Source of the DNA: Thermococcus litoralis DSM 5473 | Lineage (GTDB): Archaea > Methanobacteriota_B > Thermococci > Thermococcales > Thermococcaceae | Assembly (NCBI RefSeq): GCF_000246985.2 | Contig: NC_022084.1 | Coordinates: 1,947,224-2,011,223, forward strand | Direction of reading: 5' to 3' | DNA length: 64,000 nt | In this document: piece after piece, positions 29,434 through 34,292 of the stretch | Numbering within the stretch: position 1 is the first letter of the stretch | Layout of the letters: each line of letters opens with the position of its first letter | Notes under the pieces: model-generated | What the model saw: only the letters and a program-made list of their open reading frames with translations | Databases searched by the model: none | Told to the model about the DNA's origin: nothing | Program-made: the position numbers and the translations under genes

Positions 29434-29706
29434 TTATGCAGCAATTGTATTCTTCCAGCTCAAACTGCTTTCGATGAGCTCTTGTGGGGTTAGCTCCTTT
29501 TCGCTGATGACTTCTGGTTCAAATGGCTTGAGCATCTCCAAAAGCTTTTCTTTTGGAAGTTTTGTTTCGTCAAATATCACATACCCGTTCTTGGAATATC
29601 CATTGATAAAGACCCTGTAGACCGCTAGATCTAGTGAGAGTTTGTACTGCATCTCTCTGGCTTCGTCTGGGGTTATTTTGCCGAATTTAAGATCTACCCT
29701 TATCAT
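29434..29706 (-). CDS. Small ferredoxin-fold-like protein coupled to tes
   Basis: 90 aa. Predicted beta-alpha-beta-beta-alpha-beta order (IRVDLKFG / TPDEAREMQYKLSL / VYRVFINGYSKNGYVIFDE / KEKLLEMLKPF) suggests a ferredoxin-like fold, possibly the Thermococcales DUF3213 family (from memory). It starts 6 nt after the tetraether synthase stop, so it is co-transcribed and may assist it, which is inference. Confidence 0.6.
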   Translation of the reverse strand: MIRVDLKFGKITPDEAREMQYKLSLDLAVYRVFINGYSKNGYVIFDETKLPKEKLLEMLKPFEPEVISEKELTPQELIESSLSWKNTIAA

Positions 29707-29712
29707 CCCCCA

Positions 29713-32700
29713 TCACCCGAAGTAGTTCTTTATGTCGATGTAAGTCTTTCTATAGAGCTCACTCCCCTTCATTTTTTCAATGAACTCCTTGGTTCTCACG
29801 TATTTGTCCTTCTGGTACTCCCAGTCTGGGTGGAGGGCTTTCCATTCTTCCCAAGTGTAGCTGAATTGGGCTTGAACTTTGTCTCTGTAGAGCTCTGGTA
29901 TTACGTTAAAGGTACAGAAGGGCACAATCCTTCCGTCGGGCATTGCATAGTGAATTACACAGCGCTCTACTCTTTCAACATCGTAGTTGTACTCATCCAT
30001 GAAGTGCATCATTCCGAGGAAGAGTGTCTTGTAGTGGAACTGCCCAAGTGCCTCGTAAGTTCCGTGGGTGAACGCTTCTCTCATGATCTTTAATACATCA
30101 AAGCTCTTTGGAGCGTATTTTTCGTCATAGAAGCTCCTGAACTTGAGGAATATCTCCGCCCCAAGCTTGAGCTTCTGAAGCTTTCCTAGAGTTTTCCATT
30201 TTTCAATCTCCTCAGCCTTGCTCTCAAGGAACTCCACTAATCCCTCAACGTCGAGGAATCTCGAAATTGGGATCACTCTGTCCTCATCGAGGAAGACATA
30301 TGTTGCAGCTCCACAGCCAAAGTGGGATGTCATATAGTATTTTCTACCGGCAAATGCTTCAAAAAACCTTGCAATATGCCCGGCAATTGGTATTGGGTAC
30401 CAGTCCTCCTTTGCTATGGCACCGTTTGTCTGTTCCTCTATTCTCTTTATTGCTCCGGGAATGGTAATCCTGAAGCGCTGTCTTTCTTTCTTTGGAACTC
30501 TTCCCACAAGGGAAATCGGTTGGAAGTTGACTCCTCTGACTATATCGAGGTGGTTGAGGCCAAAGTTAATTATATCTCCAAGCTCGTGATCGTTTACGTT
30601 TCTTATGGTTGTGGGCACGAGAACAATTCCCGGCCCGCCGGCATTTCTCACGTTTTCGAAGATTAACGGAATCTCCCAGTGGTTCTTCCAATTTGTTTTT
30701 GGAGTCATTCCATCGTAGCTTAGGTATAGGGTATTAACGCCTGCTTCCCTAATCTTCCTTACAAGCTCAGGCTCAAAGGCAAACCTTATGCCGTCCGTGT
30801 TAAGCTGAACGTGGTCGTAGCCTTCTTCCTTTGCAATCCTTATGATCTCTATGAGATCATCCCTCAGTGTTGGCTCCCCTCCAGTGAACTGGACGGCATT
30901 AGCTCCAATGGGTTGTTCCTTCTTTGCATTGCGGAGCATCATGCGTATCTGCTCGAGAGTGGGCTCATAGATTGGCTGACCCTCCTTGGCGTAGAAGAAA
31001 CAATTGCTTACTAGAATTCCATCAGATGCTACAAATGAATGGCTCTCATTCTCAACCTCAAGGTCATATACGTATCCCTCGTAGTTTTCAACCTTTATCT
31101 CGCTAATTGTGTCAATGTAAAAGTCTGAAACCTTCTTGACTTTGGAGGGCTTTCTGTCTCCTATGTTATTTAACTTTTTACGATGCCCTTCTCTCAGATC
31201 AAGCATTTCGACAAGTTTTACAAGGTCGGTTCCCGCTATATATATCTTGTAGAGGTCGTGGTTTGCCCCATTCATTTTCTCTTTTGGAACCATGTAAACC
31301 CTCGCGAATATCCCTAAGGAGGCCAGTAAGTATAGCATGTCCCTAATAAGCCCTTTAGAAACACTTGCATATCCCATATGCAGAACTTTGTCTCCTCTTA
31401 CTACATATCCGTCTCCATTAAAGAGTCCACTAAGTAGAGCTATCTTTGCTTCAACCGGGAAGTTCAGGAAATTCTTGGGTAACCTCTTATTGGGTGCTCC
31501 TTCAGGGATTCCCAGTACATACTTGAAGACAAGCCGCATTAACCTACTACCTACAACTATCTGCTTAGCTTTTCCTTCCCATTCCAATATGCTGTATGGA
31601 AGGTTGAGGAAGTTGAGTATTGAAATTATTTCTTCCTCAACATCCTTATGCCCAACAGTTATTCTCAAATCCTTGTTGGTATAATTACCATCCGAGACAA
31701 AATATCCTATCAACTTTGCAAATTCGGGGGTTATTCTGAGTTTAGAAGGAAGCTCATTACTTGTGGCATCCCTGCCGAGTCTAAACTCCCCTTCAGTTAT
31801 GCCCAATTTATAGAATGCCGAAAGAGGCATAGAATCACTCTTCTTCCACTGATAAATTATATCTCCGTATTCCTCTTTGAGCGGCAAAAGATCCAGCTTT
31901 GATATCCCTCTGACATATATTTTTTCCTTTTCTTCTTCTGGTAATGATTTAAAAGCTTCTAAGAGGTTTATTTCAAATTCTCCCCTCTCATCAGTTTCAA
32001 GATTCCATAGTAGTATCAGATCATCTTCGACGTTAAGTTTATCAGCCCTCTTTTTTACTATCTTTCCGTTTTCATATATAAAGAACTTATGCTCTGGCGT
32101 CGTTCTTATTTCCCTTCCAGTTCTCGTCTTTATGACCATTATTTCTCCCGAGTGTTTTCTTCTGAGGAATTTTGTGACTCTTGTCCATTCGGCCTTTCCA
32201 TTATTGTAAGTTAAAACATATAGGTTCTCGGGAATTGAATACTCCCCCATAAATCCCTCTATCTGCACTGTATGTTCAAAGGAAAACATCTTTGCAATCT
32301 CTTCGAATTTTGCAAGCTTAACTTCACCACCAAACTTGAATAGTGCCTCTTCATATCCTGGGAAGCAGTACCAGCAGCTCAAATTACATCTATTTGTCAG
32401 AACTATGTTGAGCAAGTTAGTATGAGAGCTGTGCCTTGGACAGAGACCACAATCAAAGGGACAGTTTACACCGGTGTTCTCAACGTTGTAGCTCTTTATC
32501 TTAAAGTCATACCTCCACTCCTCAAAACGCTTATACATCTCGGCGTCTTCATAATAAACATCAGTTATCATGCCCTCTGGGCATTTTTTCGTTATCCATA
32601 CTTTTCCATCCTTTTCCCAAACCACAGCAGGGACAACTTTTCTAGTCTCGGGGCAGAGAGACCAGGTTCTATGGGGGAGAGGTCCACCGTAATCCTTACT

Positions 32701-32829
32701 GGCTTTTGTAAGGAGCTCGTGAAATTCCTCCTCGCTTATTTCGGGGTATTCGATGAGATCGCGAACCCCCTTAGTAAGCTCCCCAAATTCTCTCTCCCCA
32801 CTAGGTACTCCCTCTGTTATCTCTTCCAT
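29713..32829 (-). CDS. tes: Tetraether lipid synthase-like radical SAM protein, intein-containing precursor
   Basis: 1038-aa precursor; 583 aa after splicing. Tes (GDGT/macrocyclic archaeol synthase) joins biphytanyl chains to form membrane-spanning lipids. The N-terminus has extra cluster cysteines (SLCPETRK, KKCPEG, NCPFDCGLCPRHSSHT) typical of the Tes/MJ0619 type, then VLTNRCNLSCWYC, radical SAM Cys-x3-Cys-x2-Cys at 148/152/155. FTGGEPTLRDD binds SAM. Cys155 is the first residue of an intein; splicing restores CFFYAKEG. ATG 32829 follows AGGTGATT; TATA at about 32866-32877. Confidence 0.85.
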   Translation of the reverse strand: MEEITEGVPSGEREFGELTKGVRDLIEYPEISEEEFHELLTKASKDYGGPLPHRTWSLCPETRKVVPAVVWEKDGKVWITKKCPEGMITDVYYEDAEMYKRFEEWRYDFKIKSYNVENTGVNCPFDCGLCPRHSSHTNLLNIVLTNRCNLSCWYCFPGYEEALFKFGGEVKLAKFEEIAKMFSFEHTVQIEGFMGEYSIPENLYVLTYNNGKAEWTRVTKFLRRKHSGEIMVIKTRTGREIRTTPEHKFFIYENGKIVKKRADKLNVEDDLILLWNLETDERGEFEINLLEAFKSLPEEEKEKIYVRGISKLDLLPLKEEYGDIIYQWKKSDSMPLSAFYKLGITEGEFRLGRDATSNELPSKLRITPEFAKLIGYFVSDGNYTNKDLRITVGHKDVEEEIISILNFLNLPYSILEWEGKAKQIVVGSRLMRLVFKYVLGIPEGAPNKRLPKNFLNFPVEAKIALLSGLFNGDGYVVRGDKVLHMGYASVSKGLIRDMLYLLASLGIFARVYMVPKEKMNGANHDLYKIYIAGTDLVKLVEMLDLREGHRKKLNNIGDRKPSKVKKVSDFYIDTISEIKVENYEGYVYDLEVENESHSFVASDGILVSNCFFYAKEGQPIYEPTLEQIRMMLRNAKKEQPIGANAVQFTGGEPTLRDDLIEIIRIAKEEGYDHVQLNTDGIRFAFEPELVRKIREAGVNTLYLSYDGMTPKTNWKNHWEIPLIFENVRNAGGPGIVLVPTTIRNVNDHELGDIINFGLNHLDIVRGVNFQPISLVGRVPKKERQRFRITIPGAIKRIEEQTNGAIAKEDWYPIPIAGHIARFFEAFAGRKYYMTSHFGCGAATYVFLDEDRVIPISRFLDVEGLVEFLESKAEEIEKWKTLGKLQKLKLGAEIFLKFRSFYDEKYAPKSFDVLKIMREAFTHGTYEALGQFHYKTLFLGMMHFMDEYNYDVERVERCVIHYAMPDGRIVPFCTFNVIPELYRDKVQAQFSYTWEEWKALHPDWEYQKDKYVRTKEFIEKMKGSELYRKTYIDIKNYFG
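31003..32367 (-). other. Intein with LAGLIDADG homing endonuclease domain (455 aa)
   Basis: Begins CFPGYEEALFKFGG (Cys1) and ends DGILVSN followed by +1 Cys. Block B is GREIRTTPEHKFFIY (TxxH) at intein residues 84-98; block F is GYVYDLEVENESHSFVAS near 431-448. Endonuclease motifs LIGYFVSDGNYT (219-230) and LLSGLFNGDGYV (311-322) keep both acidic residues. The penultimate residue is Ser instead of the usual His, which can slow Asn cyclisation. It sits exactly at the third radical-SAM cysteine. Confidence 0.93.
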
Positions 32830-32988: not shown

Positions 32989-32998
32989 GATCCCTTGA
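32989..32998. repeat. Target-site duplication, left copy (IS copy 1)
   Basis: GATCCCTTGA immediately before the IS terminal repeat; identical to 33868-33877. Confidence 0.9.
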
Positions 32999-33867
32999 GG
33001 GCGTGTTTAGTTTCACCCCCTGTTATTTAAACAGTATTTGACTCTGAGGAGGATTTTCAGACCATAACACATTACCCCAAGCAGGATTCGGGTTACAGTA
33101 GTCTTTTTCAGAAAACAGGGGATTCTACTGCCAAACCAAGTTGTAAACGCACCCCAGAACCCCTCATGAGGATTCCTATGCCCGTACTCTTCTTCAGAAA
33201 ACACTCTGTCTCTCTTCTTACTACCAAAACCACCTGGAGGGTTCTTAGTCTTCTTAACAATCGGCCGATAACCCTTTTCCACCACAGTGTTCAGAACTTT
33301 CTTTGAATCATAAGCCCCATCAGCATAAAAATTCCCAGAACCCTCCGGCAGGAGTTCAATCAGCTCGTTCTCAGAAGTTGTGATCTTCACAGCAACCGGA
33401 TACAGTAAACCCGGCAGGATTCTCGTTATTGCCTGAACTTCTATTCTGTCCTTTTTTTATTTGTGATAATGGTTGAGTCTGCTTGAGTGCTGGCGTAGGG
33501 TAATTTCTGGAGTTTTTTCAGGAGGTGGTTTGTCAGTTCTTCGAGGTTCAGCTTTTTCTCCCAGTTGTGGAGGGTTGAGTAGTGAATGTTTGCTCCGAAG
33601 AATTTTCTGCCGTAGTGCTGGGCGTCTCTGAGGGGTAGGTTGTAGTATTGTTTAAAGAGGAGTATTGCCAGTATTGTTTTTACTGGGAATTTTTTGGATT
33701 TTGGTAGGTTCTTCAGCTTTCCTTCTGATTCGAAGTCTGCTAAAACGTCAAGAATTGCGAATGCCACGCTTTCAGGGTCTTTGAGTCTGTGATCCCATCT
33801 GGGGATCACGACAACCACCTGAAAGAATTCAGCAAAAACCCTAATAAAGGTTACTATAAACACGCCC
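32999..33867 (-). mobile_element. Insertion sequence, copy 1 (869 bp)
   Basis: Bounded by 11-bp inverted repeats GGGCGTGTTTA and flanked by a perfect 10-bp duplication GATCCCTTGA, so it inserted by transposition and has not recombined since. One transposase gene in two frames fills it. Nearly identical to the copy at 51497-52365, which lies in opposite orientation. DDE transposase of IS4/IS5 character; I cannot assign the IS family. It lies 170 bp upstream of tes and 57 bp upstream of the 33924 gene without hitting either promoter. Confidence 0.95.
33013..33809 (-). CDS. DDE transposase, requires -1 frameshift (IS copy 1)
   Basis: Frame 1 runs from GTG 33809 (VIPRWDHRLKDPESVAF) to a stop after IITNKKRTE; frame 2 carries YADGAYDSKKV and HRNPHEGFWG. 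A -1 shift at the A7 run (T7 on the plus strand at about 33452-33458) joins them as NKK-KDRIEVQAITRILPG with no gap, giving about 265 aa. Catalytic candidates: Asp in QADSTII, Asp in YADGAYD, Glu in PHEGFWG. Sequence around the start is an inverted repeat (GTGATCCC/GGGATCAC). Confidence 0.88.
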
Positions 33868-33877
33868 GATCCCTTGA
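33868..33877. repeat. Target-site duplication, right copy (IS copy 1)
   Basis: GATCCCTTGA directly after the right terminal repeat, matching 32989-32998. Confidence 0.9.
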
Positions 33878-33923
33878 AAAGGGTTAAAAACACCAAGACT
33901 CCCACATAAGATGGTGGTGAAAA

Positions 33924-34292
33924 ATGCCAGCACGGGAGATGAGAATGGAAATGTTCCTCAGAGCGCTGATGAGGGGGGACTACACCAAGGCGAAAGCTCA
34001 TCTGGACAAACTTGAGAAGATAGTGGGAGATGACGAGTGGGGTAGGGGATACAGCAAGGCTATAAATGGCTTTTTATCTGCGTTAAAGGACAATGACACT
34101 GATTCCCTGATAGTCCAGCTTGTAAGAAATCCGGACAATGAAAAAGCTCAAAAACTCCTTGAACATTTTGAGAGCATACTCCAGCATGAATTTAGGGATG
34201 ATTATGAGAAAGGATACTACACGGCATGGAAAGAACTTTTAACGGCTTATTTATCTCAAGAGAGACTGGGTGTTAGGCATGGGAAAAAATGA
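33924..34292 (+). CDS. Hypothetical helical protein upstream of udg
   Basis: 122 aa, all-helical by appearance with repeated patterns (MRGDYTKAKAHLDKLEKIVGDDEWGRGYSKAINGFLSAL ... HEFRDDYEKGYYTAWKELLTAYL) resembling TPR-like helical hairpins. GGTGGTG precedes ATG 33924; the TATA GGTTAAAAACACC at about 33885-33897 survives next to the IS insertion. It overlaps udg by 14 bp, so the two are coupled. No known function. Confidence 0.65.
   Translation: MPAREMRMEMFLRALMRGDYTKAKAHLDKLEKIVGDDEWGRGYSKAINGFLSALKDNDTDSLIVQLVRNPDNEKAQKLLEHFESILQHEFRDDYEKGYYTAWKELLTAYLSQERLGVRHGKK

Follow-up and report, generated by a model that had tools for sequence, protein, structure and literature searches.

The window, a 64,000-nucleotide stretch of a Thermococcaceae genome that is complete in one contig of 2.2 Mb, carries a tetraether synthase gene (tes) that encodes 1038 amino acids in one open frame and houses an intein (Table 1). 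The whole protein matched NCBIfam NF045703 with 2141 bits (cut-off 1700), the exteins matched NF045702 (Tes) with 699 bits against a cut-off of 450, and PF04055 (Radical_SAM) was also matched; together with the match of the C-extein to PDB 7tol, these hits bear out the gene assignment made in the initial annotation. Within the intein, TIGR01445 (intein N-terminus) was found at residues 155-251 with 46 bits and TIGR01443 (intein C-terminus) at 586-610 above its cut-off, and the Pfam models Intein_splicing and LAGLIDADG_3 were matched, PF14528 scoring 55 bits. The N-extein contains CPFDCGLC and the first two radical-SAM cysteines, while Cys610 (Cys+1), the first residue of the C-extein, provides mature Tes with its third radical-SAM cysteine. 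The junctions read NRCNLSCWY/CFPGYEE...ILVSN/CFFYAKEG (slashes mark the splice sites), and the earlier placement of the intein on the third cluster cysteine, with Cys155 at its start and a Cys opening the C-extein, proved exact to the base. No second, uninterrupted tes copy was found in the window genome, where the only tes matches are the two halves of the interrupted gene.

Table 1. Features of the intein-containing tes gene (window coordinates).
Feature	Coordinates	Strand	Remarks
tes	29713-32829	minus	1038 aa, one open frame
N-extein, residues 1-154	32368-32829	minus	From translation, junction analysis and NF045703/NF045702 matches
Cys148, first radical-SAM cysteine	32386-32388	minus	In N-extein
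Cys152 (Cys-3), second radical-SAM cysteine	32374-32376	minus	In N-extein
Tes intein, codons 155-609 (Cys155 to Asn609)	31003-32367	minus	455 aa; embedded LAGLIDADG homing endonuclease
Intein Cys1 codon (Cys155)	32365-32367	minus	N-terminal nucleophile; occupies the place of the third Cys of CX3CX2C before splicing
Asp380, LAGLIDADG acidic residue 1 (GYFVSDG)	31690-31692	minus	
Asp473, LAGLIDADG acidic residue 2 (SGLFNGDG)	31411-31413	minus	
Ser608 (penultimate) and Asn609 (C-terminal), block G	31003-31008	minus	
C-extein, residues 610-1038	29713-31002	minus	Pfam Radical_SAM at 610-756; PDB 7tol/7tom match

The tes gene is followed directly, on the same strand, by a gene for a DUF3213 protein (29434-29706). 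An IS5-like element (32992-33877) lies some 170 bp upstream of where tes starts; its transposase, on the minus strand, carries a frameshift (33441-34001 and 33013-33390), and the element is missing at this place in seven relatives.

The distribution of the intein was examined in 94 Thermococcaceae genomes, 87 of which had a tes match. The intein was present in 17 of these 87 genes and absent from the other 70. When the junction was compared with more than 25 intein-free homologues, the empty alleles read CNLSCWYCFFYAKEG, with CWY joined straight to CFFY without gain or loss; the direct joining of CWY to CFFYAKEG that the initial annotation had predicted for empty genes was thus found. The nearest tes (L038), with 96% DNA identity and 66 mismatches to the window over the 1710 extein positions, has no intein.

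The window gene was also compared with two other intein-bearing genes from related species, L009 (genome G081) and L010 (genome G077), in a comparison that takes in draft genomes. Between the window and L009, dS was 0.028 for the intein and 0.43 for the exteins, with 19 mismatches in 1365 intein positions against 141 in 1710 extein positions (Fisher p 1.7e-19). Between the window and L010, the corresponding dS values were 0.028 and 0.565, with mismatches at 19/1365 and 167/1710 (Fisher p 3.1e-25); this is the safest pair, as the window genome is one contig and L010 lies on a contig that exceeds 0.9 Mb, while the L009 genome is a fragmented draft. The inteins of L009 and L010 are 100% identical in DNA (0/1365 mismatches), whereas 121 mismatches over 1710 positions (7%) separate their exteins. 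In these same pairs, the first extein mismatches occur within 12-63 bases of the junctions. Transfer of the whole gene is ruled out as an alternative to intein homing, since the exteins differ by 7-10% and the inteins are 98.6-100% identical. Such near-identical inteins in diverged genomes provide a well-suited natural system in which to measure homing among hyperthermophiles. The intein and extein trees also conflict, with Desulfurococcales inteins nested inside the Thermococcaceae group and their exteins far apart, although long branches in both trees limit deep placement; the young transfers are independent of the trees. A search of IMG/VR with intein patterns for a viral carrier gave no match.

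The window intein keeps both acidic residues of its LAGLIDADG endonuclease (D380 and D473), as had been noted from the sequence at the outset, and copies at other stages were found elsewhere. In the Thermoproteota draw, L106 (genome G546) and L107 (genome G513) carry mini-inteins of 235 residues at the same Cys, from which the endonuclease has been deleted, while their near relative L101 has kept a full-length intein. In L070 the second LAGLIDADG acidic residue is lost (D to N), leaving an endonuclease-dead copy. In all three of these inteins (L106, L107 and L070) the splicing domains are intact and the site is unchanged, which indicates that the intein can persist without homing, and their occurrence beside full forms indicates that the homing life cycle is represented by several coexisting stages. 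On these sequence comparisons, the Tes intein behaves as a recent homing parasite that has spread laterally.

Two further Tes proteins depart from the common form. L100 (genome G407) has the same intein and an apparent second one after residue ~600, which starts with Ser in the region of the SAM-binding motif (AVQL/SLDYNEKIVIK... compared with AVQ(F/L)TGGEP elsewhere). L108 (genome G753) is a diverged Tes whose C-extein scores 462 bits, barely above the NF045702 cut-off; its intein, 32% identical and inserted at the same third Cys (CNMRCPVC), may stem from an independent or very old invasion.

The Tes intein of Pyrococcus abyssi has almost certainly been published already under another name. 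Two reviews (PMC10663303, PMC3922620), which give Callahan et al. (2011) as the source study, describe a 'MoaA' intein of P. abyssi in which Cys1 is natively disulfide-bonded to Cys-3 of the N-extein, a bond that blocks splicing until it is reduced, and in PMC10663303 the host enzyme is described as oxygen-labile. We identify one of our genomes (G004) as P. abyssi GE5, since its second contig matches plasmid pGT5 of that strain with 100% identity over 3444 bases. The true MoaA of this genome (TIGR02668, 414 bits) is encoded by a frame of 329 amino acids, too short to hold an intein, and among the five MoaA-like matches in this genome an intein-sized frame was found only in Tes (1052 aa), whose gene lies on contig C1 at 657857-660976. 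True MoaA is thus ruled out as the host. The P. abyssi Tes intein (L013) resembles that of the window in its site at the same Cys, its Cys-3 and Cys1, its Ser-Asn terminus before Cys+1 and its length of 455 amino acids; it differs in that its host was published as MoaA and in sequence, 62.5% of DNA positions being common to the two inteins. From the genome, the published redox-trapped 'MoaA' intein is almost certainly the Tes intein, with its host given an earlier name. No paper linking Tes with inteins was found in our literature search.

Taken together, these results favour an ordinary homing class 1 intein, with a redox delay as a likely by-product, a reading to which we assign a probability of roughly 0.87. 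The LAGLIDADG endonuclease would cut empty tes alleles and repair would copy the intein in, as the sequence divergence and the empty sites suggest. After translation, the intein would excise itself by an acyl shift at Cys1, transesterification by Cys610 and cyclisation of Asn609. Excision would join CNLSCWY to CFFYAKEG and yield a normal Tes, in keeping with the intact splicing blocks and the uninterrupted reading frame of a single-copy gene. Under oxidation, a disulfide between Cys152 (Cys-3) and Cys155 (Cys1) could stall splicing, and since this bond is reported in the P. abyssi orthologue, redox-delayed maturation of Tes is likely. Splicing requires Cys, Ser or Thr at the +1 position and homing favours conserved DNA, which together would account for an intein on the cluster motif. 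Conserved host positions are preferred by inteins (PMC2814812), and it is typical, and not remarkable, for an intein to lie on a catalytic motif.

The window intein carries the features of class 1, namely Cys1, TTPEH in block B, YDLEVENESHSF in block F and LVSN in block G followed by the +1 Cys; by sequence we assign the Tes intein to class 1, with splicing blocks that appear intact, and these blocks and the uninterrupted single-copy gene argue that it is competent to splice. The initial annotation had pointed to Ser in place of His in block G and proposed slow or conditional splicing. Ser608 is indeed present and His is the commonest penultimate residue in inteins, the grounds on which the intein could be read as degenerate and slow, but the supposed defect did not hold up: Ser occupies this position in 26 of the 27 distinct Tes inteins, mini-inteins included, from three archaeal lineages (sampled as Thermococcaceae, as one Archaeoglobaceae genome with two others of its phylum, and as Thermoproteota genomes). 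All 27 have Cys as their first residue and Asn as their last, and the sole exception at the penultimate position is a Gly in the diverged L108. With tes in single copy in the window genome, and with splicing without a penultimate His documented by the title of Chen et al. (2000), as listed among the references of PMC4031507, a degenerate, slow intein is scarcely credible. Decay or a lesion at Ser608 is ruled out by the family-wide Ser, which we take to be a family trait.

The cysteines at the N-terminal junction bring in two other explanations. The precursor reads C148-x3-C152-x2-C155, in which Cys155 belongs to the intein; because the intein starts with Cys, CX3CX2C is intact before splicing, and the earlier claim that no cluster can form until then is not established. 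This arrangement suggests that three fates may compete for Cys155, as nucleophile, as partner of Cys152 in a disulfide or as metal ligand. If Cys148, Cys152 and the intein Cys155 bound a [4Fe-4S] cluster or another metal in the precursor, Cys1 would be occupied and splicing would be tied to Fe-S supply. The retained motif, with Cys1 as a third ligand, and the statement in PMC4031507 that divalent cations inhibit other inteins speak for such gating, but once folded, the intein may position Cys1 unsuitably for a ligand, and we consider such gating very improbable. Alternatively, the host may have kept the intein for its use as a redox switch: Tes would mature only once the cell is reducing, and tetraether content would be tuned in this way. 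The signature of a redox trap is present in Cys152 and Cys155, and a Cys-3/Cys1 pair occurs in every Tes intein read; the trap is reported, in PMC10663303, for the P. abyssi orthologue with its oxygen-labile host enzyme; and splicing domain and site outlast endonuclease loss in L106, L107 and L070. However, the site itself supplies Cys-3, as the second cysteine of the cluster, and splicing cannot do without Cys1, so the pair is forced by the site and the chemistry, and its conservation is no evidence of regulation. In addition, 70 of the 87 tes-bearing relatives, the nearest included, do without the intein, its movement between species outpaces evolution of the host gene, and the difficulty of exact loss from an active-site motif allows retention without benefit (an argument made in PMC2814812). 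A host-kept switch is therefore unlikely, and a regulatory role that benefits the host is unproven, while redox-sensitive or redox-delayed splicing in itself is plausible and is already reported for the P. abyssi orthologue. We regard as a long shot the broader proposal of a cluster- or redox-gated maturation switch, domesticated in some lineages through endonuclease loss, in which CX3CX2C would be oxidised or metallated, splicing would await reducing or Fe-S conditions, and membrane-spanning lipid content would follow. The suggestion that splicing generally controls the synthesis of such lipids is likewise weakened, since the intein is patchily distributed and has recently spread laterally.

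The Tes intein is already catalogued as NCBIfam NF045703, 'tetraether lipid synthase Tes, intein-containing' (rSAM_Tes_intein); the window protein matches this model end to end (model positions 1-1040) with the same insertion point and no substantive difference, and is a member of it. The C-extein aligns with the GDGT / macrocyclic archaeol synthase of PDB 7tol and 7tom (E 7.8e-133 for 7tol), whose matched chain of 526 amino acids, unlike the window Tes, has no intein. Among the closest inteins outside Tes are those of the P. abyssi and P. horikoshii PolII proteins (family search, NF011303, 1e-26), which occupy another host and another site with about 30% identity to the Tes intein; in the Pab PolII intein, redox control is exerted by a disulfide between Cys1 and Cys+1 (PMC3922620). 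For P. abyssi the comparison amounts to a correction of identity, in that an intein that serves as a standard example of natural redox trapping, and is credited with protecting MoaA, appears to reside in Tes. If Tes is the true host, Thermococcales that are amenable to genetics offer a direct test of whether redox control by an intein alters membrane lipids.
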